Shown: in pieces, positions 5,010 through 52,731 of the stretch
Layout: each line of letters begins with the position of its first letter
Numbering within the stretch: position 1 is the first letter of the stretch
Assembly: GCF_037023755.1 (NCBI RefSeq)
Contig: NZ_CP146100.1
Coordinates: 5,053,501 to 5,117,500, forward strand
Direction: 5' to 3'
Source of the DNA: Saccharopolyspora sp. SCSIO 74807
GTDB lineage: Bacteria; Actinomycetota; Actinomycetes; Mycobacteriales; Pseudonocardiaceae
Length of the DNA stretch: 64,000 nt
Translations under genes and position numbers: made by a program
The notes under the pieces: model-generated
Seen by the model: only the letters and a program-made list of their open reading frames with translations
What the model was told of the DNA's origin: nothing
Database searches by the model: none

Positions 5010-5011
5010 GC

Positions 5012-6811: not shown

Positions 6812-6815
6812 CCCG

Positions 6816-6847
6816 ACCGGTGGCCAGGTTAGGACCTGGCCACCGGT
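6816..6847. terminator. Strong hairpin between arsA and arsB
   Basis: ACCGGTGGCCAGGT (6816-6829) pairs perfectly with ACCTGGCCACCGGT (6834-6847) across a 4-base loop. It starts 4 bases after the arsA stop and ends 39 bases before arsB. It could attenuate arsB expression, stabilise the arsDA transcript or terminate. Confidence 0.55.
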
Positions 6848-6886
6848 TCCGTTCCGACTCACCAGCACAGGAGAAACGACGACGCC

Positions 6887-22340: not shown

Positions 22341-24343
22341 GCGCCGAGTGCTGCGGACCCGACGAATCCGGTTCCTCGCACGAACCGGGCCACGACCGGC
22401 ACAGCGCCGAACGGCTCTGGCAGGTGCGCGAACTGCAGTTGGCTGCCGCGGCCGCCCTGTTACTGGCCGCGGGATGGTTGATCGGACTAACGGGGGCCAA
22501 GCAGGTCGGGCTCGGGGTCGAACTCGCTGCCGCCGTCGTCGGAGCGGCCACGTTCGCGCCGGAAGCGGTGCGCAACGTGCTGCGCCGCCGGGTCGGTGTC
22601 GGCACGTTGATGACCATCGCCGCCGTCGGTGCAGTGGCACTCGGGCAATTCGCCGAAGCCGCCCTGCTCGGGGTGCTGTTCTCGATCGCCGAAGGGCTGG
22701 AGCACTACGCGATCGCCCGCACCCGCCGCGGATTGCGATCGCTGCTGGGCCTGGTGCCGCCCACCGCCACCGTCCTGCGCAACGGCGTGGAAAACCGAGT
22801 CTCCCCCGATGACCTCGTCGTTGGTGATCGGCTGCTGCTGCGCCCCGGCGAGCGTGCGGCCACCGACGGCGTGATCAGCTCCGGCCGCACCAGCCTGGAC
22901 CTCTCGGCGATCACCGGCGAATCCGTACCGGTCGAAGCCGGTCCCGGCGACATCGCCCACGCTGGAGCGATCAACGGTGGCGGCGCCGTCGAAATCGAAG
23001 TGAGCGCCCCGGCTTCGGACTCCTCACTGGCACGCATCGTGCACATCGTCGAGCAGGCCCAAGATCGCAAGGGCCGCGGGCAACGGCTCGCCGACCGCAT
23101 CGCCAGGCCGCTGGTACCCGGCATCATGGCCCTCGCCGCGGTGATCGCCGCACTGGGACTCGTCCTGGGCGAGCCACTGGTGTGGATCGAACGCGCCTTG
23201 GTCGTACTCGTGGCCGCTTCCCCCTGCGCGTTGGCAATCTCCGTGCCGTTGACGGTCGTCGCGGCGGTCGGCGCCGCCAGCCGCACGGGCGCACTCGTCA
23301 AAGGGGGCGCCGCGCTGGAGGAACTCGGGCGCATCAAGACCGTGGCGGTCGACAAGACCGGCACCCTCACCCGCAACGAGCCGCGGGTCGTCGAAGTTGT
23401 CACGACCGGCGGCGCCACCGAGCACGACGTGCTCACGACCGCCGCCGCACTCGAGGCCCGCAGCGAACATCCGCTCGCCCGGGCGATCCTGTCGGCCGTC
23501 GAGGCGCCCACCGCTGCCGACGAGGTCACCGCGACACCCGGGCACGGCCTGCACGGGCACCTCGACGGAATCCCACTCCGCCTGGGCAAACCCGGATGGA
23601 TCAACGCCGACGCGATCGCCGACGACGTGGCGCGGTTGCAACACGACGGCGCAACCGTCGTGCTCGTCGAACGCGACGGCGCCCTGCTCGGGGCGGTCGG
23701 GGTCCGCGACGACCTCCGCGCCGAAGCCCCCGAAACGATCCGACGGCTGCGCGGGCAGGGCATCGACGCGGCGATGCTCACCGGCGACAACACCCGCACC
23801 GCCACGGAACTGGCCCAGCAGGCCGGGATCGGCACCGTGCACGCCGAGCTGCGCCCCGAGGACAAGGCCCGCCGCCTCGACGAGCTGCGCAACGGACGCA
23901 AGATCGCCATGGTCGGCGACGGCATCAACGACGCCCCCGCCCTCGCCACCGCCGACGTTGGCATCGCCATGGGCGCGATGGGCACCGACGTCGCGATCGA
24001 AACAGCCGACGTCGCGCTGATGGGCGAAGACCTCCGACACCTCCCGCAAGTCCTCGAACACGCCCGGCACGCCCGCACCGTGATGCTGCAGAACATCGGC
24101 CTCTCGCTAGCGATCATCATCGTGCTGATCCCCCTGGCCGCCTTCGGCGTCCTGGGACTGGCCACCGTGGTGTTCGTGCACGAACTCGCCGAGGTCCTCG
24201 TCATCGGCAACGCCGTCCGAGCAGCCCGCGCCCGACCCCTTCCCGACACCGCGCCGGTCGCGGCGCCGGGCAAGCGAGAACCTTCCGTCACCGGCAAACC
24301 CACCGGCCGCCCGGACAGCAGCGGATGCTGCGACGCCTGCTGA
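22337..24343 (+). CDS. P1B-type divalent-metal ATPase (SPC motif, CtpG/CadA-like)
   Basis: The 668-residue pump lacks an HMA domain but starts with a Cys/His segment (ECCGPDESGSSHEPGHDRH) and ends with GCCDAC, both plausible metal collectors. Motifs: S295-P-C in the transport helix, TGESVP, D339KTGT, SEHPLA, GDGINDAPA and a last-helix HELAEVLVIGN. The HE(I/L)AEV signature and the A/S-PC motif are those of mycobacterial CtpG-like pumps. Together with the CadC-type regulator this points to Cd/Pb/Zn (or Co) export. Confidence 0.92.
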   Translation: MSAECCGPDESGSSHEPGHDRHSAERLWQVRELQLAAAAALLLAAGWLIGLTGAKQVGLGVELAAAVVGAATFAPEAVRNVLRRRVGVGTLMTIAAVGAVALGQFAEAALLGVLFSIAEGLEHYAIARTRRGLRSLLGLVPPTATVLRNGVENRVSPDDLVVGDRLLLRPGERAATDGVISSGRTSLDLSAITGESVPVEAGPGDIAHAGAINGGGAVEIEVSAPASDSSLARIVHIVEQAQDRKGRGQRLADRIARPLVPGIMALAAVIAALGLVLGEPLVWIERALVVLVAASPCALAISVPLTVVAAVGAASRTGALVKGGAALEELGRIKTVAVDKTGTLTRNEPRVVEVVTTGGATEHDVLTTAAALEARSEHPLARAILSAVEAPTAADEVTATPGHGLHGHLDGIPLRLGKPGWINADAIADDVARLQHDGATVVLVERDGALLGAVGVRDDLRAEAPETIRRLRGQGIDAAMLTGDNTRTATELAQQAGIGTVHAELRPEDKARRLDELRNGRKIAMVGDGINDAPALATADVGIAMGAMGTDVAIETADVALMGEDLRHLPQVLEHARHARTVMLQNIGLSLAIIIVLIPLAAFGVLGLATVVFVHELAEVLVIGNAVRAARARPLPDTAPVAAPGKREPSVTGKPTGRPDSSGCCDAC

Positions 24344-36977: not shown

Positions 36978-37958
36978 ATGACGTACGACTCTGTTCTGGA
37001 TTGTGTCGGCTCGACGCCGCTGGTGCGGTTGCGGCGCTGCTTCCCCTACCCCGAGATCGAGGTCCTGGCCAAGCTGGAGATGCTCAACCCGTGCGGGAGC
37101 ATGAAGGACCGCCCCGCGCGCTACATCGTGGAGCAGGGCATTCGCGAGGGATCCCTGTACCCGGGGATGCGCCTGGTCGAAAGCACCTCGGGAAACCTCG
37201 GTGTGGCCTTGGCGGCCGCCGCCCGGATGCACGGGTTGTCGTTCACCGCGGTGGTCGATCCCAACACCTCGCCGACGAACCTGCGGCTGCTGGAACTGTT
37301 CGGCGCCGATGTGGACATGGTCACCGAGCCGGACGAGGCGGGTGGCTACTTGCACACGCGAGTGCGGCGCGCGCAGTCCTACGCCGAGGCCGATCCTGGG
37401 GTGGTCTGGATCAACCAGTACGCGAACCAGCGCAACTGGCGGGCCTACTACGACACGCTCGGCGCGGAGATCTTGCAGCAGGCCGGCGGGCCGATCGACT
37501 ACCTGGTCGCCCCGGTGTCCACGACAGGCTCGTTGCAGGGCACGGCACGACGACTGCGTGAGGAGAATCCGAATCTGAAGGTGGTGGCCGTCGACGCAGT
37601 GGGGTCGGTGATCTTCGGCGGGCCGCCCGCGAAGCGCCGCATCCCGGGCTTCGGTGCCAGCCGCGTCCCGGAGATCTTCAGCCCGCACGAGATCGACGAA
37701 GTCGTCCACGTCGCCGATCCCGGTTCCACGGCCGGCTGTCGTCGACTGGTCGAGACCGAGGGCGTGCTGGCCGGCGGTTCGTCGGGCGCCGTGATCGCCG
37801 CGCTGGACGAGCTGCTCGAGCGCATCTCCGGCCCCGCCCGAATGGTCACGTGGCTGCCCGACCGCGGGGAGCGCTACCTCGACACGGTCTTCGACGATGA
37901 CTGGGCTGAGAGCTTGAAGGAACACGCGAGCCAAGACGATCTGGCGGAGGCTCCGTGA
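36978..37958 (+). CDS. SbnA-like PLP beta-replacement enzyme
   Basis: The 326-residue fold-type II enzyme starts after AGGAGG (36966-36971). The PLP lysine is in NPCGSMKDRPA, the substrate loop in ESTSGNLGVALA, and the phosphate loop in VSTTGSLQGTARR. These match cysteine synthase relatives of the SbnA group, which in staphyloferrin B synthesis join O-phosphoserine and glutamate to give a diaminopropionate precursor. No SbnB partner is nearby, so product identity is open. It overlaps an MFS gene by GTGA, suggesting that the product is exported. Confidence 0.85.
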   Translation: MTYDSVLDCVGSTPLVRLRRCFPYPEIEVLAKLEMLNPCGSMKDRPARYIVEQGIREGSLYPGMRLVESTSGNLGVALAAAARMHGLSFTAVVDPNTSPTNLRLLELFGADVDMVTEPDEAGGYLHTRVRRAQSYAEADPGVVWINQYANQRNWRAYYDTLGAEILQQAGGPIDYLVAPVSTTGSLQGTARRLREENPNLKVVAVDAVGSVIFGGPPAKRRIPGFGASRVPEIFSPHEIDEVVHVADPGSTAGCRRLVETEGVLAGGSSGAVIAALDELLERISGPARMVTWLPDRGERYLDTVFDDDWAESLKEHASQDDLAEAP

Positions 37959-39331
37959 GCACCCAGCGGCGCAACCTCGTCTTGCTGTGGGCGAGCCAGT
38001 TCATCAACACCGCGGGGCTGATGATGCTGGTGCCGATCATGCCGTTCTACGTCGAAGGCATGGGCATCACCGGCACAGCCGCGATCCAGACCTGGGCCGG
38101 GGTGGCGATCGCGGCCCCGGCGCTGGCCCTGACCGTGGCGACCCCGTTGTGGGGTCGCCTCGGCGACCGGGTCGGACGGCACTGGATGGTCGTGCGCGCA
38201 CTGGTCGGATTGGCCTTGTCGATGCTGGTCATGGCCGTGGCGGGCAACCCGATCATGCTGGTGCTCGGGCGATTGCTGCAAGGAAGCCTCGGCGGCGTCG
38301 TCGAAGCCGCACAAGCCTTCGCCGGCGCCGCCGGGCCCGGGAACAAGCGCGGCTCAGCGTTGGGCAAGTCCTTCAGCGCCACCGCCGCAGGCTCGCTGGC
38401 CGGTCCCATCGCCGGCGGCGTGCTCGTCGGAGCCGGGGGCCTGAGCAACCTCATGGTGGGCATCGCCGCCCTGGCGGGCCTGCTCGCCGCAGCCTGCGCT
38501 GTCGGACTCCGGGAACCACGTTCGTCCCCTGTTTCCGAGCCCGCATCGGTGCACGCCGGGGTTCAAGGAGGTCGTCGGCGTTCGGGCTTCTGGCGCGTGC
38601 CCGGCGCGGCGCCCCTGGCGGTGGCCGCGGTCGGCGCGTACTTCGGCGTCTACGGGCTGATCCCGGTGTTCGCCGAACAGGTGCAGCAGACCTTCCCCGC
38701 CGGACAAGCCGGTTTGTGGGTCGGGATCTTTCAGTCGCTGACCTGGGGAGCGACCCTGATCACCTCCTTCTGGTGGGGTCGGCACAACGACCGGGGCCAA
38801 CGCCCGGTGCGGTCCCTGGCGCTCGCCTCGGGCGTCTGCGCCGTCAGCATCACCGCGCAAGCCCTCCCCTTGGGCGCGGTCGGACTGATCGTGTTGCGGC
38901 TGCTGCAGGGAGCGAGTTTCGCCGCCTTGGCCCAGTCGTTGTTCTTCCACTTCAGCCGACACGCACCGGAGGACCGCCGAAGCGGCTACGTCGGTGCGGC
39001 CAACAGCTTCCTGCTCGCCGGGCAGTCGGCCGGACCGTTGCTGGCCGGCCCCATGGCCATCCTGTTCCCGAGCCCGATCTCGATCGCGCTGATGGGTGCC
39101 GCCTGCGGCGTGGCGTTCGTGTGCTGTCTGGGGGCCACCCGGGCCGAAAATGAGCACGCCGAGCCGACCAGGGGATCGGCCTGTGACAGCGGACAACCGC
39201 CCGTGCTGCGAAAGATGAGCGGCACGCTCGACCTCCCGGCCGAACAGACATCGCCGCTTCCACCGATCACCGGCACTGTCACGACGACGAGCGACCGCCG
39301 TCGTGACGGAGTGAGCCAACTCCGCTCGTAG
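37955..39331 (+). CDS. MFS exporter coupled to the SbnA-like enzyme
   Basis: The 458-residue transporter has 12 helices, GRLGDRVGRHWMVV after TM2, and two halves joined by a linker (SEPASVHAGVQGGRRR). The C-terminal ~60 residues are an extra hydrophilic tail. GTG 37955 overlaps the upstream stop. The arrangement parallels SbnD next to SbnA in staphyloferrin clusters, but could equally export another small amino-acid product. Confidence 0.85.
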   Translation: MSTQRRNLVLLWASQFINTAGLMMLVPIMPFYVEGMGITGTAAIQTWAGVAIAAPALALTVATPLWGRLGDRVGRHWMVVRALVGLALSMLVMAVAGNPIMLVLGRLLQGSLGGVVEAAQAFAGAAGPGNKRGSALGKSFSATAAGSLAGPIAGGVLVGAGGLSNLMVGIAALAGLLAAACAVGLREPRSSPVSEPASVHAGVQGGRRRSGFWRVPGAAPLAVAAVGAYFGVYGLIPVFAEQVQQTFPAGQAGLWVGIFQSLTWGATLITSFWWGRHNDRGQRPVRSLALASGVCAVSITAQALPLGAVGLIVLRLLQGASFAALAQSLFFHFSRHAPEDRRSGYVGAANSFLLAGQSAGPLLAGPMAILFPSPISIALMGAACGVAFVCCLGATRAENEHAEPTRGSACDSGQPPVLRKMSGTLDLPAEQTSPLPPITGTVTTTSDRRRDGVSQLRS

Positions 39332-39487: not shown

Positions 39488-40093
39488 TCAGTTGGGGAGG
39501 CTCGCCAGCAGTTCCACCGCTGAGCTGGTGAAGCGGCGGGGCCTGCTGGTCACCGTGATGTCGGTGAAGCCAGCGTGCCTGGCATCGTCTCGGAGCTGGT
39601 CGGGTGAGATGTCGAGAACGTGGCGGTGCACGGTGGCCACGAGGCGGCCTCCCCGACGGAGCACTCGGGCCAGTTCGTTGAACCCCGCCTCGCGGTCCCA
39701 AAGCATGATGTTGTTGACCGAGATCGCGACGTCGATGCTGGCACCGCTGCACCCGGTGTTCTCCGCTCGGCCGGGGCGTACCTCGACCACGCCGCGCGCG
39801 ATCTGGTCGGCACAGCGCGCTGCGGCCATGCGCCGCATCGGCTCGGACGGATCGACACCGACGACGTGACCACCCGGGTCGACGGCCGCCGCGGCCAGAG
39901 CGAGCCCGAGGCCGGGGCCGTGCCCGAGCACCAACACGTGCTCGCCAGGGCGCAATACTGCCTGTTCGACGGCGCGGTGTTCCTGCTCGGCGTTGCCTCG
40001 CAGCATCATCGCGCCGCCGACCCGCCCCAAGACGCCGCGGGGATGGCCGAAGGCAGGATCGAGCCACCGCATCAACAACCTCGCCATGGGCAC
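39488..40093 (-). CDS. Class I SAM-dependent methyltransferase (nuo-like operon end)
   Basis: The 201-residue protein has motif I VLVLGHGPGLGLALA, the acidic VVGVDPSEPM and NELARVLRRGGRLVATV. The N-terminal RWLDPAFGHPRGVLGRVGG is a feature of a small actinobacterial methyltransferase group. An ATG two codons in is an alternative start. It follows nuoN after 56 bases on the same strand and could be the last gene of that operon. Substrate unknown. Confidence 0.85.
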   Translation of the reverse strand: MPMARLLMRWLDPAFGHPRGVLGRVGGAMMLRGNAEQEHRAVEQAVLRPGEHVLVLGHGPGLGLALAAAAVDPGGHVVGVDPSEPMRRMAAARCADQIARGVVEVRPGRAENTGCSGASIDVAISVNNIMLWDREAGFNELARVLRRGGRLVATVHRHVLDISPDQLRDDARHAGFTDITVTSRPRRFTSSAVELLASLPN

Positions 40094-40149: not shown

Positions 40150-41574
40150 CTACGGGACGAGCGGGCCCGCGGTCAGCGGGAGCACCGCTCCCCCAGCCAT
40201 ACCGAGCAGGAGCGAGGCTGCTGCGGCCAGGTAGGCGGTTGCGGCCGCCCACCGTCCCTTCAGGACCATGACCTTGGTGCTCTCGGATGCCGGCGAGAAC
40301 ACCGGCAGGATCCAACGCAGGTAGTAGAACAGGCTGGCTACGGTGTTGAGCACCGCCAGCACGGCCAGCCAGACGAAGTCACCATCGATGGCGGCGGTGA
40401 ACACCTCCAGCTTGCCGAGGAATACCGATGTCGGTGGCGTGCCGACCAAACCCAGCAGGCACACGACGAGGCCGCCCGCGAGCATCGGGTGCGCGCGACC
40501 AAGTCCGCGGTAGTCCTCGAGCCGGGTCGTGCGAGGTACTGCGGCGACTACGGCGAATGCCCCGAGGTTGGTGACGGCGTAGGCGCCGAGATAGAACAGC
40601 GTTCCGGGCAGTGCGAGGGCACTTTTCCCCGCTACGGCGATGGCCATGAGGATGTACCCGACTTGGCTGATCGTGGAGTAGGCCAGCAGGCGCCGTACAT
40701 TGTCCTGGAAGAACGCGGCGAGATTGCCCAGCGTCATCGACGCAGCCGCCAGGATGGCCACCAGCAGCGGCCAATTGAGACTCACCGCGGGTATGCTGTC
40801 GACGAGAAGTCGGTAGGCGGCGATGAGCCCGCCGATTTTGGGCACGGTGGTCACGAACGCGGCGACCGATGTGGCGGCGCCTTCGGTCACGTCGGGGACC
40901 CAGAAGTGCGCGGGCACCGCGCCGATCTTGAACAGTAGCCCGCCCAGCACCGCCACCAACGCGATCCCGACCACCGGTGGTGGCGCCGTCGGCAGGTTCC
41001 GGGCGAGTGCGGCGTAATTGGTGGCGCCGCCGCTGCCGTAGAGGATCGTGGTACCGCCGAGCAGGGCGATCCCGAGGAAGGCGCCCATGAGGTAGTACTT
41101 CAGCGATGCCTCGGTTCCCGATGCGTCCTTGGCGAAACCGGCCAGCGCATACAGCGGAATCGAGGCCAGCAGGTAGGCGGCCACGAGCAGCAGCACGTCC
41201 GATGCGCCGGCGAGCATGATCGTGCCCAGGGCCCCGAGTTGCATCAGCACGTGAAATTCGGTCTCCCGAGGGTGGGCGCCGATCTCCTCGCTCGACAGGC
41301 AGATCACGAGCAGGACCGCGACCAGCACGATGAGCCGTCCGGCGTTCGTGGCGGTGTCGATGGCGTAGCTGTCGCCGAAGACCTTCTGCGGCTCGCCGGC
41401 CATCGCGGCACCCGTGGCCACGATCCCCGCCAGGCAGGCACAGGCCGTGACCACGCGCACCCACCACTGCCTGCGGCGCGGCAGCCAGGACCCCAGCAGC
41501 AGGCCCAGCACGGCTCCGGCGACCAGGGTCAGTTCGGGTATCAGGGCGGCAGGGTTCTCGTTCATGCCCGTCAT
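40150..41574 (-). CDS. nuoN: Complex I-like subunit N (antiporter-like)
   Basis: The 474-residue protein has ~14 helices with the NuoN signatures KYYLMGAFLGIALLGGTT, FKIGAVPAHFWVPDVTEGA (the lysine-bearing discontinuous helix region) and LLAYSTISQVGYILM. It is one of three proton-channel subunits. ATGA overlap with nuoM. The gene set lacks the whole hydrophilic arm of complex I. Confidence 0.93.
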   Translation of the reverse strand: MTGMNENPAALIPELTLVAGAVLGLLLGSWLPRRRQWWVRVVTACACLAGIVATGAAMAGEPQKVFGDSYAIDTATNAGRLIVLVAVLLVICLSSEEIGAHPRETEFHVLMQLGALGTIMLAGASDVLLLVAAYLLASIPLYALAGFAKDASGTEASLKYYLMGAFLGIALLGGTTILYGSGGATNYAALARNLPTAPPPVVGIALVAVLGGLLFKIGAVPAHFWVPDVTEGAATSVAAFVTTVPKIGGLIAAYRLLVDSIPAVSLNWPLLVAILAAASMTLGNLAAFFQDNVRRLLAYSTISQVGYILMAIAVAGKSALALPGTLFYLGAYAVTNLGAFAVVAAVPRTTRLEDYRGLGRAHPMLAGGLVVCLLGLVGTPPTSVFLGKLEVFTAAIDGDFVWLAVLAVLNTVASLFYYLRWILPVFSPASESTKVMVLKGRWAAATAYLAAAASLLLGMAGGAVLPLTAGPLVP

Positions 41575-43076
41575 CGGCCCACGAGCCCGATCAGCGTCGC
41601 CGAGGCCGGTTCGATCACCTCGAGCAGGAATCTCGGCACCACACCGATCACGACCGCAAGGGCGAGCAACGGCAGCACCGAGACGACCTCGCTGCGGTGC
41701 AAGTCCGCGAAGTCACGTCCGGCGCCGGGCGCGTCCGGAAGCCGCAGCGTTCCGAGGAAGACCCGATGCAGGACTCGCAGGAACAGCCCGGCGGTGATCA
41801 GAATGCCCAGCACGGCCAGCGCAGTGCCGATCGTGGCAGAGGCCAAGCTGCCGGTGAAGATCTGAAACTCAGCGATGAACCCGGAAAAGCCGGGCAACCC
41901 GAGCGAGGCGAACGCGGCGACCCCGGTCGCGGCGGCGAACAGCGGTGCCGGACCAGCCACTCCCGAGTACGCGCCCATGTCATAGGTGCCGCGGCGGTCG
42001 TAGAACACTCCGGCCAGCAGGAACAGCGCGGCGGTGATCAACCCGTGGCTGACCATCTGGGTCACCGCACCGGTCACGGCCAGCGAACGAGCCTGCGCGT
42101 CGCTTCCGGCCCACAGCCCTGTGGCACCGACCGCGAGTACGACGTATCCCATGTGGTTGACCGAGGTGTAGGCGACCATGCGCTTGAAATCCTGTTGCGC
42201 CAGCGCGACCAGGGCACCGTAGAGCACCGAGACCACCCCGATCACCACCACGGCACCGGCGTACTGGCGCCAAGTCTCGGGCAGCAGCGGCATGGCGATG
42301 CGCACGAAGCCGTAAGTGCCCATCTTCAGCAGAACTCCCGCCAGGATCGCTGAGCCTGCGGCGGGAGCGTCGGTATGGGCGGGCGGCAGCCAGGTGTGAA
42401 ACGGCACGGTCGGTGTCTTGACCGCGAGCCCGATGCCGATGGCCAGCAGCACCAAGGCCGCGTAGGCCCCGCGGCCCGCCAACGGATTTGCCGTGGCGAG
42501 CGCGATGATGTCGAACGTGTGCGGCTCGGCGGCGAGGTAGAGACCGATGAATCCCAGCAACAGCGCCAACGATCCGACGAAGGTGTACAGGAAGAACGTC
42601 AGCGCCGAGCGTTTCGCCTGCCCGTGTCCCCACCCCGCGATGACGAAGTACATGCCCACAATGGACAGATCGAAGTAGACGAAGAACAGGATCAGGTCCA
42701 GTGCCGTGAACAGTCCCAGGCTCACCGTCTGGAGGAACAGGAACAGCAGCACGAAGCTCTTGACCCGATGAGTTTGACGCAGCGAATACACCGCACACGC
42801 CAAAAACAGCAATGCTGTCATCGCCACCAGCGGTAGCGACAGGCCGTCGACACCGACGTGGTAGGCGACCCCGGCGCTGGGGATCCAGCGCACGTTCTGT
42901 TCGTAGCTCATGCCACCGCCGGTGTCGGAGGCGATCCAGGCGAGCACGACCAGCACCGCGTCGATCGCCGTGATACCGATCCAGCCGACCAGGAACGGGC
43001 GGCGCCCGGCGGATTCCGGGACCGCAGCCAGCACCACGGCGGCTACCAGCGGCAGGAAGACGATCAGTGTGAGCAC
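41571..43076 (-). CDS. nuoM: Complex I-like subunit M (antiporter-like)
   Basis: The 501-residue subunit has IGLAVKTPTVPFHTWLPPAHTDAPAAGS and KRMVAYTSVNHMGYV. In the helix that holds the key Glu144 in Escherichia coli NuoM (WEMMLVPMYF) this protein has FDLSIVGMYF, a Glu-to-Asp change that keeps an acidic group. Four bases separate it from the nuoL stop. Confidence 0.93.
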   Translation of the reverse strand: MLTLIVFLPLVAAVVLAAVPESAGRRPFLVGWIGITAIDAVLVVLAWIASDTGGGMSYEQNVRWIPSAGVAYHVGVDGLSLPLVAMTALLFLACAVYSLRQTHRVKSFVLLFLFLQTVSLGLFTALDLILFFVYFDLSIVGMYFVIAGWGHGQAKRSALTFFLYTFVGSLALLLGFIGLYLAAEPHTFDIIALATANPLAGRGAYAALVLLAIGIGLAVKTPTVPFHTWLPPAHTDAPAAGSAILAGVLLKMGTYGFVRIAMPLLPETWRQYAGAVVVIGVVSVLYGALVALAQQDFKRMVAYTSVNHMGYVVLAVGATGLWAGSDAQARSLAVTGAVTQMVSHGLITAALFLLAGVFYDRRGTYDMGAYSGVAGPAPLFAAATGVAAFASLGLPGFSGFIAEFQIFTGSLASATIGTALAVLGILITAGLFLRVLHRVFLGTLRLPDAPGAGRDFADLHRSEVVSVLPLLALAVVIGVVPRFLLEVIEPASATLIGLVGR

Positions 43077-43079
43077 GGG

Positions 43080-44945
43080 TCACCTCACCAGCACAATGAT
43101 CAGGGCGAGCACCGCCACCGCGACGGCGGTCTGGGCGTAGTACTGGTGCAGTTGTCCGGTCTGTGGTCGACGGGCGAGCGCCCCGAGCCTCCTGGCCGAG
43201 TGGGCCACGGCCTGCACCGCACCGTCGATCGGATGCTCTGCGCGACGGGCAGCAAACCGGGCCAGGTCCAAAGCCGCCGCCGGGACGGCCCGCACGGCCC
43301 GGTCCAACACCCGGTCGTCGAAGACCGCCAAACCACGTGCTAGCGCCATCGTCGGCCGCACGACCAGCAGCCGCGCAGCACGCTCGATCCACAGCCATTC
43401 GGCCAGCCCTTGGTGCACAACAGCGGGTGTCGCCGTGCGGCGGTTTCCCCACCACCACGTCGCGCTCGCGGCGGCCACGGCCACCACCACCGACAGGCCG
43501 AGTTCCCAGGCGGCCGGGACCGGGGTCCACGGTTGGCCGAGCAACGCTACGACGGCGTGGATCCCCGGGGGAACGCCGAAAAGGCCCAGCACGGCGGCGA
43601 AAGCCGAAAGGGCGATCAGAACCGGCGGGGTGACGGCGGGAATTTCGCGCGTGCCGATCTGCTCGGTGTCCCAGTCGGTCGTTCCGGATTCCGGCCGCCA
43701 GACGAACCACGCGGCTTTGGCGCTGTAGACGGCCGCGACCACCGCCGCTGCCAGCCCGATCGCGTACAGCCCCGGACTGCGGTGCAGCACGGCGGCGAGC
43801 ACGGCGTCCTTCGACACCCACAGCGACAGCGGCGGCAGACCGGCCAGGGACGCGGTGGCGATGGTGAACGTGGCCCCGACCAACGGATACCGCCGCGCCG
43901 CGCCGCGCAGCGCGGGCAGTGCTTTGGTGCCCAACGCGGTCAGCCACGCCCCAGCGGCGAGGAACAGGGCCGACTTGGTCGCCGCATGCGCCACGAGCTG
44001 CAGCACTCCGCCGGTGATCCCATCCGCACCCGCGGCCAGCACCATGAAACCGATCTGGGCCGAAGTCGATGCCGCGAGCAGCTGCTTGAGGTCGGTCTGC
44101 GCGACCGCCACGAGGCCCAGCAGCAGCGCGGTCACCGCGCCGGCCCAGGCCACCAACGACTCGCCCCAACCGGACGCGGCGAGCAACGGGTGCACCCGCA
44201 GCAGCAAGTACGCTCCGGCGGCGACCATGGTCGCCGAGTGCAGCAGCGCCGAAACCGGACTCGGGCCCTCCATCGCCCGGGACAGCCAGAAGTGGAACGG
44301 CACCTGCGCTGACTTGCCCAACGCCGCGAGCACCACTCCCGCCGTGACGACGTCCCGCCATCCTGGTCCTGCGTCCGGGAGCGCGGATAGGGCCAGCGAG
44401 CCGATTCCTCCGGCGAGGGCCGCGCCGGAGGCGAGGTAGAGGCCGAGATCGGCCGCCCGGGTCGTGAGGAAGGCGACGTTGGCGGCTCGCATTCTGCGGG
44501 TGTCGCGCCACCAGAATCCGATCAGAGCCCAGCTCGTCGCCCCCATGAGCTCCCAGCCCATGAGCAGCACCGCCATCCCGGTCGCGGTGACGGTGACCAG
44601 CATGGCCCCGGAGAACACCAGCATCAGCCCGGTGAACCGTCCGCGCGCCGCGGCGAGTTCGGGCTCCCCCGCAGCGAAGACCAGCACGGCCACGGTGACG
44701 GCGGCGACGGTGACGACCAGGATCGCCGAGAGCCCGTCGACCGCCAAGCCCGCGTCGATCCCGGCGAACAACGGCACGCTCACTGCCGGTCGGCCGACCG
44801 CGACGGCGACCGCGAGCGCCGAGGTGATTCCCGCGGCCGCCGTGCCCGCGGCAACGGCGAAACGATCAGCGCGTCGACCAGCGCACGCCAGCACAACCCC
44901 GGTTCCGAGCGGGACCGCGATCAGCAGCCACACGAGCGTGCCCAT
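43080..44945 (-). CDS. nuoL: Complex I-like subunit L (antiporter-like)
   Basis: The 621-residue protein keeps GWELMGATSWALIGFWW (the conserved Glu), KSAQVPFHFWLSRAMEGPSPVSALLHSATMV and KQLLAASTSAQIGFM, so the proton path looks functional. The C-terminal part should include the lateral helix (LVVRPTMALARGLAVFDDRVLDRAV region). Confidence 0.93.
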   Translation of the reverse strand: MGTLVWLLIAVPLGTGVVLACAGRRADRFAVAAGTAAAGITSALAVAVAVGRPAVSVPLFAGIDAGLAVDGLSAILVVTVAAVTVAVLVFAAGEPELAAARGRFTGLMLVFSGAMLVTVTATGMAVLLMGWELMGATSWALIGFWWRDTRRMRAANVAFLTTRAADLGLYLASGAALAGGIGSLALSALPDAGPGWRDVVTAGVVLAALGKSAQVPFHFWLSRAMEGPSPVSALLHSATMVAAGAYLLLRVHPLLAASGWGESLVAWAGAVTALLLGLVAVAQTDLKQLLAASTSAQIGFMVLAAGADGITGGVLQLVAHAATKSALFLAAGAWLTALGTKALPALRGAARRYPLVGATFTIATASLAGLPPLSLWVSKDAVLAAVLHRSPGLYAIGLAAAVVAAVYSAKAAWFVWRPESGTTDWDTEQIGTREIPAVTPPVLIALSAFAAVLGLFGVPPGIHAVVALLGQPWTPVPAAWELGLSVVVAVAAASATWWWGNRRTATPAVVHQGLAEWLWIERAARLLVVRPTMALARGLAVFDDRVLDRAVRAVPAAALDLARFAARRAEHPIDGAVQAVAHSARRLGALARRPQTGQLHQYYAQTAVAVAVLALIIVLVR

Positions 44946-44948
44946 CGC

Positions 44949-45254
44949 CTACTCCTTGAGATCGGCGGCCATATCGGTCATGTCGACGTCCCGTGCGCGG
45001 AAGATCGCGGTGACCACCGCGAACCCGGCCGCCATCTCCACCGCCATCGCCGCGATGATCACGATGACCAGCACTTGGCCGGCCGTCGCGGCCGGTGCGA
45101 GGAAGTACCAGAAGGCCGCCGCGGCCACGATGAGGCCGTTGAGCATTAGCTCCAGGCCCATCATCAACATCACGATCGACTGCTGCGACAGAGTGCCGAA
45201 CAACCCGATCGCGAACAGCCCAGCGGCCAACAGCAGGAACCACTCCAGGCTCAA
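44949..45254 (-). CDS. nuoK: Complex I-like subunit K
   Basis: The 101-residue, three-helix subunit retains both conserved membrane glutamates, in MLMMGLELMLNG and MAVEMAAGFA. It overlaps nuoJ by ATGA. Confidence 0.95.
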   Translation of the reverse strand: MSLEWFLLLAAGLFAIGLFGTLSQQSIVMLMMGLELMLNGLIVAAAAFWYFLAPAATAGQVLVIVIIAAMAVEMAAGFAVVTAIFRARDVDMTDMAADLKE

Positions 45255-45814
45255 CGTCCGGCACCTCCCGGAATCGGGTCGTGCGCCGGATCCCGCAGGT
45301 CATCGCCGAATCGGTCGTACCGGCCGCGGTGGGTGGCCAGCACGACCGTGGCCACGATCGTCGCGAACAGCACGAGACCGAGCGTCATCATGGTCAGCAT
45401 GTGCGGGCCCATCAGTGCCTGTCCCAGCGCGAACGTGGGATCACGGGGAGGCTCCCCGGTGCGCTGCGGCCAGTCGACAAGCACGATCCCGGCGGCCAGC
45501 ACCGCGAATGTCCCCACCGACAGGGTCATCGCGCCGGTCTTGTTGTGATACATCGCCATCGGCATCAACCCGGCGGGGTTCATCATGTACATGATCATGA
45601 ACACGGCCATGATGACCATTTCCATGACCATCATCAGCACGATCACCACACCGAGGTAGTCCAACCCGAGCAGGACCACTTCGGCGGCCACGCACAGAAA
45701 CGACGCCAACAGCGCGAAGGTCACCCGCGCCATCGAGTCCAACCGGAACACCAGGAAGCCCCTGACCACCGCGAAAACCGCGAAGATCCAGAACAGCACT
45801 GTGCTCACCCGCAT
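45251..45814 (-). CDS. nuoJ: Complex I-like subunit J
   Basis: The 187-residue subunit has VEVVLLGLDYLGVVIVL-type helix 3 (seen as AAEVVLLGLDYLGVVIVLMM) with a very Met-rich continuation (MVMEMVIMAVFMIMYMM). Its ending is a short hydrophilic tail. The Met-rich helix is more extreme than in standard NuoJ. Confidence 0.9.
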   Translation of the reverse strand: MRVSTVLFWIFAVFAVVRGFLVFRLDSMARVTFALLASFLCVAAEVVLLGLDYLGVVIVLMMVMEMVIMAVFMIMYMMNPAGLMPMAMYHNKTGAMTLSVGTFAVLAAGIVLVDWPQRTGEPPRDPTFALGQALMGPHMLTMMTLGLVLFATIVATVVLATHRGRYDRFGDDLRDPAHDPIPGGAGR

Positions 45815-45821
45815 CCCCTCC

Positions 45822-46751
45822 TCATCGCGCCAGCACCACCACGGCCACCACCAGGGCTTGCAGGATGGTCAGCGGGATCAGCACGATCCAGGCGAACTCG
45901 GCGAACCGGTCCATCCGCACCGCCGGGAACCGGCGCCCGAGCCATATCACCGCCGCCAGCACGGCGGCCGTCTTCACGAACGTCCACGCCCACGCGGGAA
46001 GGACCGGGCCGCTGCCGCCACCGAGGAACAACGGGACCGACATCGCCACGGCGACCACCAGCAGCATCCACCGTCCGCCCACGAACACGAGCCGGTCCAC
46101 ACCGGACAGTTCCGCGGCAGCACCGCCGGCGAGGTCAGTCCCCAGCGGTGCCTCGAAAGGACCCCAGAACGCCATGGCCGCGGCGCTGAGCAGATACACC
46201 ACGAACGCCACCGGCATCCACACCACGAACCACAGGCCGGACTGCGCCTCGACGATGCCGCCCACCCGCAACGTTTCCGCCGCGGTGGCAGCCGTGATCA
46301 ACGCGAACATGTGCGGCAGCTCGTAGGCCAATCCCTGGGCGACGAACCGATACCCACCGATCAACGAGAACACGGAGTTCGGGCCCCAACCGGCCATCCA
46401 CACCGCTGCCCACGCGAGGATCTCCATCCCGTTGAACCACACCACGCCCACGGGCAGATCGGCCACGGCCACGTGTCCCCACGGCAGCACCACCGCCGCC
46501 GACACCGCGGCAACCGGCACCGTGACCAGACCTACCCGCCACAGCACGAGATCCGCAGCCGTGGTCGTACGCCGCTGACCGATCACCAACCGCACCACCG
46601 AGCGCAACGGCCGCACCATCGAACCCGCGACCGACACAGAACGCCCCGCGGCGCGTGCGTGCAGCGCTGCGTCGATGGCGACCGCGGCATAGGCCGCCGC
46701 CGCCATCGCGAAGGGAAGAACCACGACCGACCACACCGGCGCCTCACCCAT
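45822..46751 (-). CDS. nuoH: Complex I-like subunit H
   Basis: The 309-residue subunit keeps GWGPNSVFSLIGGYRFVAQGLAYELP (compare GWGSNN...SYEI) and PFEAPLGTDLAGGAAAELSG (compare [21 protein letters not shown]). Several acidic residues of the quinone-linked loop are missing, which fits loss of quinone chemistry at the interface. It overlaps protein X by 8 bases. Confidence 0.88.
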   Translation of the reverse strand: MGEAPVWSVVVLPFAMAAAAYAAVAIDAALHARAAGRSVSVAGSMVRPLRSVVRLVIGQRRTTTAADLVLWRVGLVTVPVAAVSAAVVLPWGHVAVADLPVGVVWFNGMEILAWAAVWMAGWGPNSVFSLIGGYRFVAQGLAYELPHMFALITAATAAETLRVGGIVEAQSGLWFVVWMPVAFVVYLLSAAAMAFWGPFEAPLGTDLAGGAAAELSGVDRLVFVGGRWMLLVVAVAMSVPLFLGGGSGPVLPAWAWTFVKTAAVLAAVIWLGRRFPAVRMDRFAEFAWIVLIPLTILQALVVAVVVLAR

Positions 46752-47988
46752 CCAGGAATCCCGCCGCGAGCTCCTCGGAGGTGAGCTCTGCCAGGTCAGG
46801 GTCGAAGCTGGCCACGATCAGCCGCGCCGTGGCGAACTCGGTTCCCTCCAACAAATCGGGCAGAACAGCCAGCAGCGGTGCTGAGCCGCCCTGTCCGCGC
46901 GGCGGCTCCACGTCGTCGGTCAACCTGCCGACGTCATCGACGTGCGGGAGCAATTCGTCGAGTTCGTCAAGCCAGATCGCCCAACGGGCGCTGACATCAC
47001 CGCTCGCCCGGCTAGCCCGCAGCGCCGGGCCCGTCACTCCGGCTTGTGCAGCTTCCTCCGAAGAGAGCACGCCGAGGCCATCGGTGAGCCACCGCAACGT
47101 CCGCGAGCGACGCAACCGTCCGGCCAGCTTGAACCACGCCGAGGCCACCTGCGCAGCAGGGGCACTTGCCAGCACCGCATCGCGCACGCGGCGAGCACGA
47201 CAGGCCGCGTCCGGCCATCCAACCACCGTCAACACGCGGGCAAGGCTGTCCAGATGTGCGCCCGCCCGTCGTCGAGTCGCCTCTCCGATCGTCACCGCGT
47301 GGCCGGTGTCGGCGCGGTGCCAGGGCGCGGTCCAGAAGGCATCCGCCGGACCCGCCCGTCGATGCCCGGCGACGCGCACGTCCTGGAGCACATCGCCCTG
47401 CACCGTCGTGCGCAGCACCAGACCGGCGGGCCAGGCGGGCAGTACCGGGCCGAGCGGTACGTGCAACTGATCGAGCGTGAGCCCGTCACGGTCGTCACCG
47501 CGTTCGGCCATCGCCAAGCCACCGGGCAAATCCTCGCCCGAACCATGCCCGTGTTGATGGTCCGAGCCGGGATCGTGGTGGGCGCCTGCATCACCGCCGT
47601 GTCCGGCACTGGGATCGTGTTGGTGGTCGCTGCCACCGCGGCTGGGCCGAGAGTGCGAGTCGTGCTGCGCGGCTGGTTCCGCAGCGGCGAGCGCGCTCTT
47701 GCCCTCGTCGAGTGCGCCGACGGCGTCGTCGGCGCCCGGCACATGAACACGAGCCCGTGGACCCGGGACCTGGCCCCAGGCCTGATCGAAGAACTCCGCC
47801 AGCCCAGGATCTTCGGGGCCGGTCACGACCAGCAGGTCCGCATCCGCAGGACTCGCCGCCTCCGGCCAGCCGCGCACCCGCAACACGTTCTCAACGGCCA
47901 GCCGCGCCGCCGTACCGGCGGGGGACTGCGCGACCAACACATGCGGAACGTCGGCGGCGAAGCGCCGCAAAGCGGCGTTCAAGCCCAT
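46744..47988 (-). CDS. Protein X: NuoB-like/NuoD-like fusion without redox ligands, His-rich linker
   Basis: This 414-residue protein replaces nuoB-C-D in the operon. Residues ~15-95 resemble the NuoB core: ADADLLVVTGPEDPGLAEFF aligns with NuoB 'QADLMVVAGTCFTKM', but all cluster N2 cysteines are gone (the whole protein has one Cys). Residues ~100-155 are a His/Asp/Gly linker (QHDSHS, HQHDPSAGHGGDAGAHHD, HQHGHG). From ~175 it resembles NuoD: HVPLGPVLPAWPAGLVLR (NuoD GPQHPATHGVLR, the quinone His lost) and GLGVLSSEEAAQAGVTGPAL (NuoD 'IGVLPAEAALAWGVTGP'). It looks like a structural plug or sensor on the membrane arm. The alignment is by eye. Confidence 0.6.
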   Translation of the reverse strand: MGLNAALRRFAADVPHVLVAQSPAGTAARLAVENVLRVRGWPEAASPADADLLVVTGPEDPGLAEFFDQAWGQVPGPRARVHVPGADDAVGALDEGKSALAAAEPAAQHDSHSRPSRGGSDHQHDPSAGHGGDAGAHHDPGSDHQHGHGSGEDLPGGLAMAERGDDRDGLTLDQLHVPLGPVLPAWPAGLVLRTTVQGDVLQDVRVAGHRRAGPADAFWTAPWHRADTGHAVTIGEATRRRAGAHLDSLARVLTVVGWPDAACRARRVRDAVLASAPAAQVASAWFKLAGRLRRSRTLRWLTDGLGVLSSEEAAQAGVTGPALRASRASGDVSARWAIWLDELDELLPHVDDVGRLTDDVEPPRGQGGSAPLLAVLPDLLEGTEFATARLIVASFDPDLAELTSEELAAGFLDG

Positions 47989-48335
47989 CGCAGTGCCCCT
48001 TCGCGCCAGGCATAGACCACCCCGGCGAGCAGGATCCCCAAAAACAGGAACATTTCGATGACCGCGCTGGCGCCGACCGACGAGACCACGAGCGCCCACG
48101 GGTACATGAACAGCATCTCCATCTCGAAGGCCAGATAGACCATCGTCAGCGCGTACCACCGCGCGTGAAAGCGGGAAAACGCGTGCTCGGAAGGCTCATG
48201 ACCGGACAGGAACGGCTTGACCGGCCGCTCCGACGGTGCGCCCGAGGCCAGCGCCGCCAGCCCATACACCCCGGCGACCAAGACGACCGTCACCACTAGC
48301 ACGAGCAGGGCCGCCCCGAATCCGCTCACATCCAC
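47979..48335 (-). CDS. nuoA: Complex I-like subunit A
   Basis: The 118-residue, three-helix subunit has SGHEPSEHAFSRFHARWYALTMVYLAFEMEMLFMYPWAL, the NuoA loop and helix 2 with its acidic residues. The Cys of the loop found in many NuoA proteins is absent. First gene of the minus-strand operon A-X-H-J-K-L-M-N; it overlaps X by 10 bases and diverges from csoR. Confidence 0.93.
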   Translation of the reverse strand: MDVSGFGAALLVLVVTVVLVAGVYGLAALASGAPSERPVKPFLSGHEPSEHAFSRFHARWYALTMVYLAFEMEMLFMYPWALVVSSVGASAVIEMFLFLGILLAGVVYAWREGALRWA

Positions 48336-48461: not shown

Positions 48462-48476
48462 TACCCCCTAGGGGTA
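48462..48476. promoter_or_regulatory. CsoR operator in the nuoA-csoR divergent region
   Basis: TACCCCCTAGGGGTA is a palindrome of the actinobacterial CsoR type (TACCC...GGGTA core), 36 bp before csoR and 127 bp before nuoA. Autoregulation of csoR-copZ-copA is expected. An effect on the nuo-like operon is possible. Confidence 0.75.
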
Positions 48477-48511: not shown

Positions 48512-48793
48512 ATGAACGGTTACGCCCAGGACAAGAGCCAGTACGCCGCACGGTTGCGCCGGATCGAGGGACAGGTCCGCGGCCTGGCGAACGCGATTGA
48601 GAACGACCAGTACTGCATCGACGTGCTCACCCAGGTCAGTGCGACCACTAAGGCGCTGCAGTCGGTTGCGCTGGGCCTGATGGACGACCACCTCAAGCAC
48701 TGCGTCGCCGAAGCGGCCGCCGAGGGCGGCGAGGTCGCCGACGAGAAGGTGCGCGAAGCCAGCGACGCGATCGCACGGCTCGTTCGCTCCTGA
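48512..48793 (+). CDS. csoR: CsoR copper-sensing repressor
   Basis: The 93-residue four-helix protein has the Cu(I) ligand triad C35-H60-C64 (YCIDVL, DHLKHC), matching Cys36/His61/Cys65 of mycobacterial CsoR, and the DNA-contacting RLRRIEGQVRGL. AGAGAGGACGG precedes ATG 48512. It heads csoR-copZ-copA. Confidence 0.95.
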   Translation: MNGYAQDKSQYAARLRRIEGQVRGLANAIENDQYCIDVLTQVSATTKALQSVALGLMDDHLKHCVAEAAAEGGEVADEKVREASDAIARLVRS

Positions 48794-48837: not shown

Positions 48838-49047
48838 ATGACCGAGGCGACCTACACCGTGGCCGGGATGACCTGCGAGCACTGCGCCCGCTCGGTCACC
48901 GAAGAGATCTCCGAGATCACCGGCGTGCAGGACGTGGCCGTGGACCTGGGCTCCGGAGCAGTGACCGTCACCAGCGCCGAGACGCTACCGACGGACGCGG
49001 TGCGCGCGGCCGTGTCCGAAGCCGGCTACGAACTGACCTCCGACTAA
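48838..49047 (+). CDS. copZ: CopZ copper chaperone
   Basis: The 69-residue HMA protein has AGMTCEHC and the C-terminal SEAGYEL. It carries Cu(I) to CopA. AGGGAAGGG lies upstream of ATG 48838. Confidence 0.95.
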   Translation: MTEATYTVAGMTCEHCARSVTEEISEITGVQDVAVDLGSGAVTVTSAETLPTDAVRAAVSEAGYELTSD

Positions 49048-49146: not shown

Positions 49147-51441
49147 ATGAGCACGGTCACCGATCCCACAGCCACACCCGCACACGAGGTCGAGCTCGCG
49201 ATCACCGGGATGACCTGCGCGTCATGCGCGGCCCGCATCGAAAAGAAGCTCAGCAAGCTCGACGGGGTCACCGCCACGGTCAACTACGCCACCGAGAAGG
49301 CCAGCGTCCGCTACCCCGAGGGGCTGGACCGCCAGCGGCTCCTCGACCAGGTCGAAGCCGCCGGGTACTCGGCCACGCTGCCCGAATCCGACGCGCGAGG
49401 CGAACCGGCCGTCACCCCGGCCGAGATCGACGATCCCGCGCGGGCCCTGCGCGAGCGGCTTGTCATCTCGGCCCTGCTCTCCGTCCCGGTCATCGCGATG
49501 GCGATGGTCCCTGCCTTCCAGTTCACCTACTGGCAATGGATCTCGCTGACGTTGGCCGCACCGGTCGTGGTCTGGGGAGCGTGGCCGTTCCACCGGGCCG
49601 CGTGGACGAACCTGCGCCACGGCGCGGTCACCATGGACACCCTCATCTCAATGGGCACATCGGCGGCCTTCGCCTGGTCGCTGCACGCGCTGCTGTTCGG
49701 CACCGCGGGCACGCCGGGCATGACACACCCGTTCGCCCTGACCATCCAGCACGGAGCCGGCGCCGGGTCGATCTACCTGGAAGTCGCGGCGGGCGTAACC
49801 ACCTTCATCCTCGCCGGACGCTACTTCGAAGCACGGTCCAAGCGCCGTGCCGGCGCAGCACTTCGCGCACTGCTCGAACTCGGAGCGAAAGACGTCGCCG
49901 TGCTGCGGGACGGCCGCGAGCAACGCATCCCCACCGACCAGCTCGTCGTCGGCGACCGGTTCCTCGTCCGCCCCGGCGAGAAGATCGCCACCGACGGCAT
50001 CGTCGAAGACGGCACCTCCGCCGTCGACGCCAGCATGCTCACCGGCGAGTCCGTGCCCGTCGAGGTCGCGCCCGGCACCACCGTCGTCGGTGCCACCGTC
50101 AACGCGGGTGGCAGCCTGATCGTGCGGGCGAGCAGGGTCGGCGCCGACACGCAACTGGCCCAGATGGCCAAGCTCGTTGAGGACGCCCAGAGCGGCAAGG
50201 CAGCGGTGCAGCGACTCGCCGACCGCGTCTCGGCAGTGTTCGTGCCCATCGTAATCGCGTTGGCGGTCGCCTCACTGGTCTTCTGGCTGGTCTCAGGTGC
50301 TGGCGCCACCGCGGCGTTCACCGCCGCCGTCGCCGTTCTGATCATCGCCTGCCCATGCGCGCTCGGACTGGCCACGCCCACCGCGCTGATGGTCGGCACC
50401 GGCCGAGGCGCCCAGATGGGCGTGCTGCTCAAAGGCCCCGAAGTGCTGGAGTCGACCCGCCGGATCGACACGGTGGTGCTCGACAAGACCGGCACCGTCA
50501 CCACCGGCCAGATGTCGCTGATCGCTGTGCACGTCGCCGCAGGAGAGGACCACGAGCAGGTGCTGCGGCTGGCCGGTGCGGCCGAGCACGGCTCCGAGCA
50601 CCCCATCGCCAAGGCCATCGCCGACGGGGCCATGGACCGGACAGGACAGCTCCCCGCGGCCGAGGACTTCAGCAACGTCGAAGGCTTGGGCGTGCAGGCC
50701 ACCGTCGACGGGCACGCAGTGCTCGTTGGACGGCCACAGCTCCTGCAGCACTGGAGTCAGCCCCTTCCCCAGGATCTCACCGCCCGCCAAGCCACCGCGG
50801 AAAGCCACGGGCGCACGGCTGTGGCGGTCGCGTGGGACGGGCAGGCCCGTGCGGTGCTCGAAGTCGCCGACACCGTCAAGCCCACCTCCGCGGCAGCCGT
50901 CGCGCAGCTGCGCGACCTCGGCCTGTCACCGGTACTGCTCACCGGCGACAACGACGCCGTCGCACGCACCATCGCCGCCGACGTCGGCATCGACGAGGTC
51001 ATCGCCGAGGTACTCCCGCAAGACAAAGTCGCCGTGATCGAACGCCTCCAGCGCGACGGGCGGTCTGTGGCCATGGTCGGCGACGGGGTCAACGATGCCG
51101 CAGCGCTCGCCACCGCCGACCTCGGGCTGGCCATGGGCACCGGCACCGACGTGGCCATCGAAGCCTCGGACCTGACCCTGGTGCGCGGCGACCTGCGCGG
51201 GGCCGCTGATGCCATCCGCCTCGCCCGACGGACTTTGACGACGATCAAAGGCAACCTGTTCTGGGCGTTCGCCTACAACATCGCCGCGTTGCCGCTGGCG
51301 GCAGCGGGCCTGCTCAACCCCATGATCGCAGGCGCTGCTATGGGCTTTTCCAGCGTGTTCGTCGTCGGCAACAGCCTGCGCCTGCGCCACTTCCGCAGCC
51401 ACGCAACAACTTCTTCCGCAGCCCACGCGGAGGTTGCCTAA
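49147..51441 (+). CDS. copA: CopA copper-exporting P1B-1 ATPase
   Basis: The 764-residue pump has one N-terminal HMA domain (GMTC24ASC27), CPC at 402-404 in the transport helix, TGESVP, D446KTGT, SEHPIA and [10 protein letters not shown]. It exports Cu(I). ATG 49147 follows CAGGAGAAG. It is the canonical copper pump of the window, unlike the YPC and SPC pumps. Confidence 0.96.
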
Positions 51442-52095: not shown

Positions 52096-52731
52096 ATGAA
52101 GCGCACTCGCGCAATCGCTTCCGCGGCAGCTTCCGTCGCCGTCGCCGCGGTCATCGCCGGATGCAGCAACGCCACCGACACAAGCCAGGCCCCCAGCCCG
52201 GCACCGCCGAGCGCTGGAGCCCCGTCCCAACAGGCCCCGACGCAGGCACCGCACAACCAGGCGGACATCACCTTCGCCCAAGGCATGGTCCCGCACCACC
52301 AGCAGGCCATCGAGATGTCCCGAACAGCTCTCGAACGCGCCCAGTCCGACCAGGTCAAAAACCTCGCCCGGCAGATCGAAGCCGCTCAAGGCCCGGAGAT
52401 CGAGACCCTGAACGGCTGGCTGCGCGCTTGGGGCGCAGCCACCTCACCCATGCCCGGCATGGACCACGGAGGCATGAACCATGGCAGCATGAACATGGGC
52501 GAAGGCATGATGTCGCCTGAGGAAATGCAGCAATTCCAACAGGCCACCGGCCCTGAGTTCGACCGGCAATTCCTGACCATGATGATCAAGCACCACCAAG
52601 GCGCCGTCACCATGGCACAGACCGAACTCACCAACGGGCAAAACGCCGAGGCCAAGCAGCTCGCCCAACAGATCATCAGCACTCAGAACGCCGAGATCGA
52701 CACCATGAAGAAGCTGCTCGAACAGAAGTAG
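52096..52731 (+). CDS. DUF305 His/Met-rich lipoprotein
   Basis: The lipobox VIAGC (Cys23) anchors a 211-residue DUF305 protein with two HH motifs (FAQGMVPHHQQAIEMS and FLTMMIKHHQGAVTMA) and a His/Met linker (MPGMDHGGMNHGSMNMGEGMM). It is probably a surface copper buffer. The hairpin at 52756-52793 ends the copper operon. Confidence 0.92.
   Translation: MKRTRAIASAAASVAVAAVIAGCSNATDTSQAPSPAPPSAGAPSQQAPTQAPHNQADITFAQGMVPHHQQAIEMSRTALERAQSDQVKNLARQIEAAQGPEIETLNGWLRAWGAATSPMPGMDHGGMNHGSMNMGEGMMSPEEMQQFQQATGPEFDRQFLTMMIKHHQGAVTMAQTELTNGQNAEAKQLAQQIISTQNAEIDTMKKLLEQK

Follow-up and report, generated by a model that had tools for sequence, protein, structure and literature searches.

A complex I-like operon without redox genes, facing a copper cluster in Saccharopolyspora, as a candidate copper/proton antiporter

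We analysed a stretch of 64,000 nucleotides (the window, by which we mean this whole stretch) from Saccharopolyspora sp. SCSIO 74807 (contig NZ_CP146100.1, positions 5,053,501 to 5,117,500) and within it an operon of eight genes, overlapping or nearly so, that occupies 48335 to 40150 of the minus strand in the order A-X-H-J-K-L-M-N. The first gene encodes a NuoA-like subunit of 118 amino acids (aa), in which two acids are retained and Met residues stand on the flanks (47979–48335; PF00507, E value (E) 2.5e-25). It is followed by X, a protein of 414 aa (46744–47988, ATG at 47988), by a NuoH-like subunit of 309 aa with an altered E216/E218 loop (45822–46751; PF00146, E 4.2e-43), by a Met-rich NuoJ-like subunit of 187 aa (45251–45814; PF00499) and by a NuoK-like subunit of 101 aa, which retains both Glu and has new Met nearby (44949–45254; PF00420). 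The last three genes encode antiporter-like subunits: L with 621 aa (43080–44945; PF00361, E 4.3e-53), M with 501 aa, assigned by TIGR01972 (1e-139) and by a NuoM tree (41571–43076), and N with 474 aa, above cut-off for both PF00361 and TIGR01770 (40150–41574). A, H, J, K, L, M and N all exceed their Pfam cut-offs and make up the complete membrane set of respiratory complex I; the best models for L, M and N are NuoL, NuoM and NuoN, respectively. Redox genes are absent from the operon outside X. An earlier note, made from the letters of this stretch, had described an A-X-H-J-K-L-M-N operon devoid of B, C, D, E, F, G and I genes, and it had the genes, order, strand and coordinates right. It overlooked the copper context.

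This context begins directly upstream of A, where the operon and a csoR-copZ-copA cluster on the plus strand diverge. The cluster encodes a CsoR/RicR-family repressor (48512–48793; PF02583, E 2.5e-28, the RicR model reaching 2.6e-43 but staying under its cut-off), a CopZ-like HMA chaperone (48838–49047; PF00403, E 3e-17) and a CopA-type copper P-type ATPase (49147–51441; TIGR01511, 534.9 bits at a cut-off of 397); a DUF305 protein lies further along the same strand (52096–52731; PF03713, E 6.3e-54). Within the divergent promoter, at 48462–48476, stands the operator-like palindrome TACCCCCTAGGGGTA, which fits the CsoR consensus ATATACCCCTNAGGGGTATAT of Streptomyces lividans (TAC-X9-GTA G-tract type), as given in the available text of PMC3902906. 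We conclude that the window operon faces a predicted CsoR-type operator.

We determined the distribution of the operon by three scans. Relatives of X occur in 36 of 150 genomes of the family (own genome included), some of them as mere short pieces. An alignment of J matched 35 of 396 genomes of the phylum at E 1.6e-30 or better, again with the own genome included; 16 weaker matches among the 51 (E 8.9e-11 and above) were left out, and the three of these that were opened (L159–L161) are canonical nuo operons. The same alignment recovered at least 198 relatives from a genome collection, of which the best 80 were kept, a selection skewed towards relatives of the window. A pattern scan of genome contigs using X alone found no relative where the J alignment succeeded. 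In total 118 loci were mapped, of which 106 remained after near-identical H were dropped, and 17 loci from the phylum search brought the sample to 123.

All eight genes stand in the order A-X-H-J-K-L-M-N at 109 of these 123 loci. Four of the remaining 14 are complete except that X was not called, because the gene finder was trained on window codons, and ten are incomplete in other ways, a number of these lying on short stretches. At E 1e-5, tblastn detected no homologue of B, C, D, E, F or I outside X at the 123 loci: NuoD-like matches were confined to X itself (three loci), and a single NuoG-like gene was found, in L037. At a laxer limit, a 478-aa gene in L154 resembles NuoI (E 8.9e-5). The earlier note had suggested a check on whether this gene order always lacks redox genes; it does so nearly throughout, and the alternative that the note had named as a refutation, a decayed copy restricted to one strain, does not agree with an operon widespread in all three scans. 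A NuoM tree with 58 rows places the 51 of copper type, three proteobacterial plasmids among them, in a single group (support 99/99), the comparison being with five canonical rows and two outgroup rows on long branches. The copper-type complex was apparently derived from complex I once. At one locus (L050:9418-11796) a single open frame takes in X, J and the greater part of H, the end of H lying in another frame; it may be a fusion or a sequence error, the two being indistinguishable.

The source genome consists of a single contig of 6.69 Mb with one NuoD-family match. It carries a separate nuo operon at 2.10 Mb (L023), the presence of which had been suggested for checking; A, B, D, H, K and L were identified there by match and C, E, F, G, I and J named from their order, with M and N outside the stretch examined. 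A second A-X-H-J-K-L-M-N copy lies at 0.93 Mb, and its neighbours are SbnA-like, major facilitator superfamily (MFS), CsoR, CopZ, CopA and DUF305 genes, as at the window operon.

We determined the descent of X by comparison of profiles and of predicted structure. By itself, window X yields only a weak NuoD match in Pfam (E 3.5e-4). A profile of 93 X sequences, compared by hhalign with one template each, matches NuoB over window residues 38–86 (47731–47877, minus strand; probability (P) 95.9, E 5.7e-9) and NuoD over residues 168–400 (46789–47487, minus strand; P 93.4, E 2.6e-7). Decoys, i.e. reversed X, NuoB and NuoD profiles and profiles of A, J and K, score P 0.1–0.3. The H-profile decoy initially reached P 96.7, an effect of a single row among its 39 (L050), the open frame that contains X plus H; once rows outside 250–340 aa were removed, 37 rows were left and P fell to 1.9. 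Among 30 X of the family, Complex1_49kDa matches seven and Oxidored_q6 four at E up to 1, the 49kDa match of the first of the 30 lying under the cut-off. For deeply diverging X, ten scanned of twelve, Complex1_49kDa exceeds its cut-off in nine and Oxidored_q6 in none of the ten. The predicted structure of X, built from 54 sequences (mean local confidence, pLDDT, 87.7; global score, pTM, 0.85), was compared with known structures by Foldseek, with a best E of 4.7e-7 and template-modelling scores (TM-scores) of about 0.4–0.5. The 50 matches listed comprise complex I, photosynthetic NDH, formate hydrogenlyase and MBS entries, and nine of the top ten are named as NuoD, 49 kDa, NdhH or formate hydrogenlyase subunit 5 chains.

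The residues that carry redox chemistry in complex I are not conserved in X. No column of the 93 rows contains Cys in more than 23% of sequences, compared with the N2 cysteines of NuoB in complex I, and therefore cluster N2 should not form. The quinone-site motif of NuoD, GPQHPSTHG, reads GPVLPAWPAG in window X, with both His absent; both are present in 33 of 34 comparison NuoD rows, the other row having a gap. Judged by profiles and model together, X is a degenerate NuoB–NuoD fusion, descended from B and D. It does occupy the B-C-D position, as the earlier note had it, but it is not the novel subunit proposed there.

Between the NuoB-like and NuoD-like halves, window X carries a His-rich linker (aa 109–148; 47545–47664, minus strand), 23 of whose 40 residues fall within segments of pLDDT <50. 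In six of the ten deep X scanned, the Pfam heavy-metal-binding domain (HMBD) takes the place of the linker (E to 2.1e-27); the six belong to one deep lineage, a single family represented by five genomes, and all have CsoR nearby. The plasmids of Halomonas, Roseivivax and Acuticoccus instead carry their His-rich stretch in the tail of J. Counted over the 100 loci with X of at least 280 aa, a metal-type feature is present at 57 (His-rich X at 53, HMBD at six, His-rich J tail at four); among 307 control proteins, only 2 attain this density of His. Loci with such a feature have copper neighbours more often (36 of 57) than loci without one (16 of 43; p 0.015).

In the membrane subunits, we compared proton-path positions with residues of the E. 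coli subunits that we take to be functional, their letters being checked against the sequence; one such position, NuoH E240, was discarded, as the E. coli letter proved to be G. K retains both Glu, one of which is Asp in 6 of 121 rows. L retains E144, K229, H254, H338 and K399, with H334 replaced by Q in 78 of 117, and M retains K234, K265 and E407. The Glu of transmembrane helix 5 (TM5) in M, E144, is Asp in 111 of 118 rows, the window included, in agreement with the single E to D exchange reported in the earlier note. Its wider statement that all proton-path Glu and Lys are kept does not stand: in N the Lys are mostly retained (K217 in 109 of 117) and the TM5 Glu (E133 in E. coli) is replaced by Leu in 114 of 117 rows, as in the window, and H retains E157 (109 of 121) and E228 (118 of 121) while E36, E216 and E218 are mostly lost. 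In J, Y59 is replaced by Met in 119 of 120.

Met is gained in three of the membrane subunits. Relative to a canonical set of only four or five sequences (five for J), the mean Met share of the family rises from 3.0% to 10.0% in J, from 5.5% to 8.7% in K and from 3.6% to 5.8% in A, and it is lower in H, L, M and N; rows best matching a canonical subunit were not counted, and five loci lack a counted row in the Met columns for A, two for J and four for K. Eighteen columns of A, J and K contain Met in at least 85% of 125–128 rows and in no canonical row, and 16 of them are also Met in all three proteobacterial plasmids. Most lie in J, where the third transmembrane helix (TM3) and the following loop (residues 61–91; 45542–45634, minus strand) carry Met at 61, 62, 66, 69, 73, 77, 78, 86 and 88 in 127 or 128 of 128 rows and at 75 in 121 of 128, together with a Glu at position 65 in all 128 rows, where the canonical residue is Ala. 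The others adjoin the acids of A (71, 73) and K (35, 73). Acids at these positions belong to the E-channel lining of complex I.

The copper context of the window recurs across the sample. We scored five markers (CsoR, CopA, CopZ, DUF305 and multicopper oxidase) within about 10 kb of the operon. One or more of them accompany the operon at 22 of 39 loci of the family, the window among these, at 36 of 68 named loci and at 10 of 17 phylum-search loci. In random windows of the same contigs the number is 3 of 36 (Fisher 8e-6 for family against random); for CsoR or CopA alone the numbers are 15 of 39 family loci and 1 of 36 random windows (p 1.4e-4). Related loci are not independent, and the p-values are to be read as guides. 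When neighbouring genes of 106 loci are ranked by cluster, the three commonest are CopA (38 loci), DUF305 (31) and CsoR (24); identification covered a minority of the other clusters. Of 118 regions upstream of A, 25 contain the operator pattern TACCC-N(0-8)-GGGTA within 400 bases, compared with 1 of 1728 random 400-base stretches, mostly non-promoter.

Eighteen plasmid records were found, of which we opened 15, the remaining three being further M. avium records. Copper or heavy-metal genes lie beside the operon on 12 of the 15, including those of Roseivivax, Halomonas and Acuticoccus; the Ornithinimicrobium plasmid, counted among the 12, has only DUF305 and metal-responsive regulators. On the Gordonia, Pseudarthrobacter and Rhodococcus plasmids, no copper or heavy-metal genes were found in the stretch examined. 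A single protein separates A from H on 11 of the 15, the other four being two Pseudonocardia plasmids, the Pseudarthrobacter plasmid with IS3 and one with incomplete annotation. On the Pseudonocardia plasmids (L263, L269), the place between A and H expected for X is annotated as hypothetical pieces. On the conjugative Pseudarthrobacter plasmid (L266:9599-12053), an IS3 transposase separates a short X from H, the other genes being annotated.

The window is a multi-metal region. It contains genes for an ArsA-type ATPase, an ArsB pump and two further heavy-metal P-type ATPases (5003–8353, 10634–13093 and 22424–24343); the P-type ATPase at 10634 lies above both the copper and the cadmium model cut-offs, the one at 22424 above the cadmium and under the copper cut-off. 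An SbnA-family 2,3-diaminopropionate enzyme and an MFS transporter adjoin the operon (36978–39331), as they do at the second copy, and SbnA-like genes occur near the operon at 11 of 106 loci. Just downstream of N lies a methyltransferase gene (39488–40087) whose likeness to arsenite methyltransferases is under cut-off. Genes for BlaI-type repressors and for M56-type peptidases are repeatedly found close to the operon, the former at 16 and the latter at 15 of 106 loci (e.g. L038, L082, L139).

The link between the operon and copper is strong, and a copper-related role is very probable. We infer transport as well: the odds are about even that the complex would perform proton-coupled transport of Cu(I), as an antiporter driven by the proton-motive force beside CopA. 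The co-expression of such an operon with copper genes in Marinobacter atlanticus, described in the available text of PMC8233155, also counts in favour of this reading. In its full form, to which we assign a probability of roughly 0.45, our reading is that the operon encodes an eight-subunit Cu(I)/H+ antiporter that arose from complex I, is mobile on plasmids and is common to Actinomycetota and Pseudomonadota, the iron–sulfur/quinone module having been converted to metal loading and the E-channel to a Met-lined copper path. X would bind cytoplasmic Cu(I) at the former site of cluster N2 and quinone and hand it to the Met/acid path through A, J and K; Cu(I) would then exit the cell in exchange for protons entering via the antiporter-like subunits. 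The redox arm is missing, and the complex therefore should not perform NADH/quinone chemistry of the known kind. The earlier note had proposed an antiporter or a drive other than NADH/quinone; the lack of a redox arm is in line with this, and its generic antiporter is sharpened here to a copper-linked system.

Several observations weigh against Cu(I)/H+ antiport. CopA already exports Cu(I). None of the five markers is found at 49 of the 107 family and named loci and at 7 of the 17 phylum-search loci, and 43 of the 100 loci scored have neither a His-rich X nor HMBD nor a His-rich J tail. Among plasmid X, one of six exceeds the Complex1_49kDa (NuoD) cut-off and none of the six has HMBD; the sequence of X, used alone, found no relative among PDB sequences. 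The direct divergent neighbour is csoR at 11 of the 25 site-bearing loci (ten and the window), and the site may therefore serve csoR alone there. The loss of the TM5 Glu of N makes coupling through N doubtful. In a helical-wheel analysis, the full set of Met does not form a significant face on J TM3 (p 0.16); p 0.016 is obtained only after one Met is removed post hoc.

Four other explanations have to be weighed. The one that survives best, though we consider it unlikely, is a copper-gated proton valve or cation/H+ exchanger: X would act as the metal sensor and gate the membrane arm open or shut, which would tune pH or the proton-motive force under copper stress with no copper crossing the membrane. 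The metal-binding type of X, the copper genes around the operon and the largely retained proton path of K, L and M are all consistent with such gating, but it leaves unexplained the 18 new Met columns, which lie within the membrane subunits A, J and K.

Instead, the complex could be an ion pump powered by the redox chemistry of Cu(I)/Cu(II) at X. Such copper-redox-driven pumping is suggested, in the available text of PMC8233155, for Marinobacter atlanticus, where a complex I-like operon lies inside a copper cluster and is co-expressed with the copper genes; the insert of X, located between its NuoB-like and NuoD-like parts, would suit this proposal. We consider it improbable for the operon described here, in which no electron acceptor is visible, Cys is not conserved, the His of the NuoD quinone motif are replaced and the NuoH loop is altered.

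A proton or sodium pump for marine or osmotic adaptation is very improbable. It is the explanation that the available texts of PMC3314556, PMC4018334, PMC6002675 and PMC6676996 give, by an argument from distribution, for a partial NDH-1/nuo operon of Salinispora, Streptomyces and Kocuria; one carrier noted in PMC6676996 came from copper-rich mine fluids, and its operon was interpreted as osmotic. The CsoR-type site upstream argues against this explanation, as do the commonest neighbour clusters, CopA, DUF305 and CsoR, in a ranking for which salt-related genes were not searched. Finally, a functionless, decaying relic of complex I is scarcely credible: the sequence of X is degenerate and some copies are incomplete or broken, e.g. 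by IS3 beside the short X of the Pseudarthrobacter plasmid, but eight genes kept in order at 109 of 123 loci and Met and acid columns nearly invariant across phyla speak against decay.

If Cu(I)/H+ antiport is correct, the membrane arm of complex I works without redox chemistry and is coupled to metal instead, and the debated coupling route through the E-channel becomes testable via metal binding and Met substitution. Copper detoxification would gain a proton-driven inner-membrane route beside CopA, and a gene set long cited as a marine adaptation would receive a new explanation.

Two elements of this picture were known already, namely the bare operon in its marine or osmotic reading and the copper link for Marinobacter. 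We liken the operon of Salinispora, Streptomyces and Kocuria to ours by its description only: it has the nuoA, H, J, K, L, M, N set, and in the gene order of PMC6676996 a hypothetical protein separates A from H. It differs in interpretation, as those papers, so far as their available text goes, propose no copper role and no origin for the hypothetical protein; the word 'copper' occurs nowhere in PMC3314556 and PMC4018334. The Marinobacter atlanticus operon, also compared by description only, is listed in the available text of PMC8233155 as nuoADHJKL, with nuoM and nuoN missing. The accessible part of PMC12361115 treats partial Nuo clusters and does not name this operon, and the accessible parts of PMC4531530 and PMC13332983 contain nothing on it. 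In the mainly open literature covered, partly through excerpts, we found no published account of the NuoB–NuoD origin of X or of the loss of redox residues, nor of the HMBD insert, the predicted CsoR-type operator or the gain of Met.

With the Mrp cation/H+ antiporters the operon shares antiporter-like subunits without a redox arm, which makes them a working analogy. Mrp antiporters are not known to contain NuoA or NuoH; here A and H are present and L, M and N score best against Nuo models, which places the operon outside that group. HMBD occurs in metal-efflux proteins, CusB and others, and the same domain is found in six deep X, here inside a NuoB–NuoD fusion. With respiratory complex I the operon has in common the seven membrane subunits in nuo order and an X homologous to NuoB and NuoD. 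It differs from complex I in that the window operon lacks C, E, F, G and I, that B and D are fused without conserved Cys or quinone-motif His, and that X has acquired an insert of metal-binding type and A, J and K new Met.

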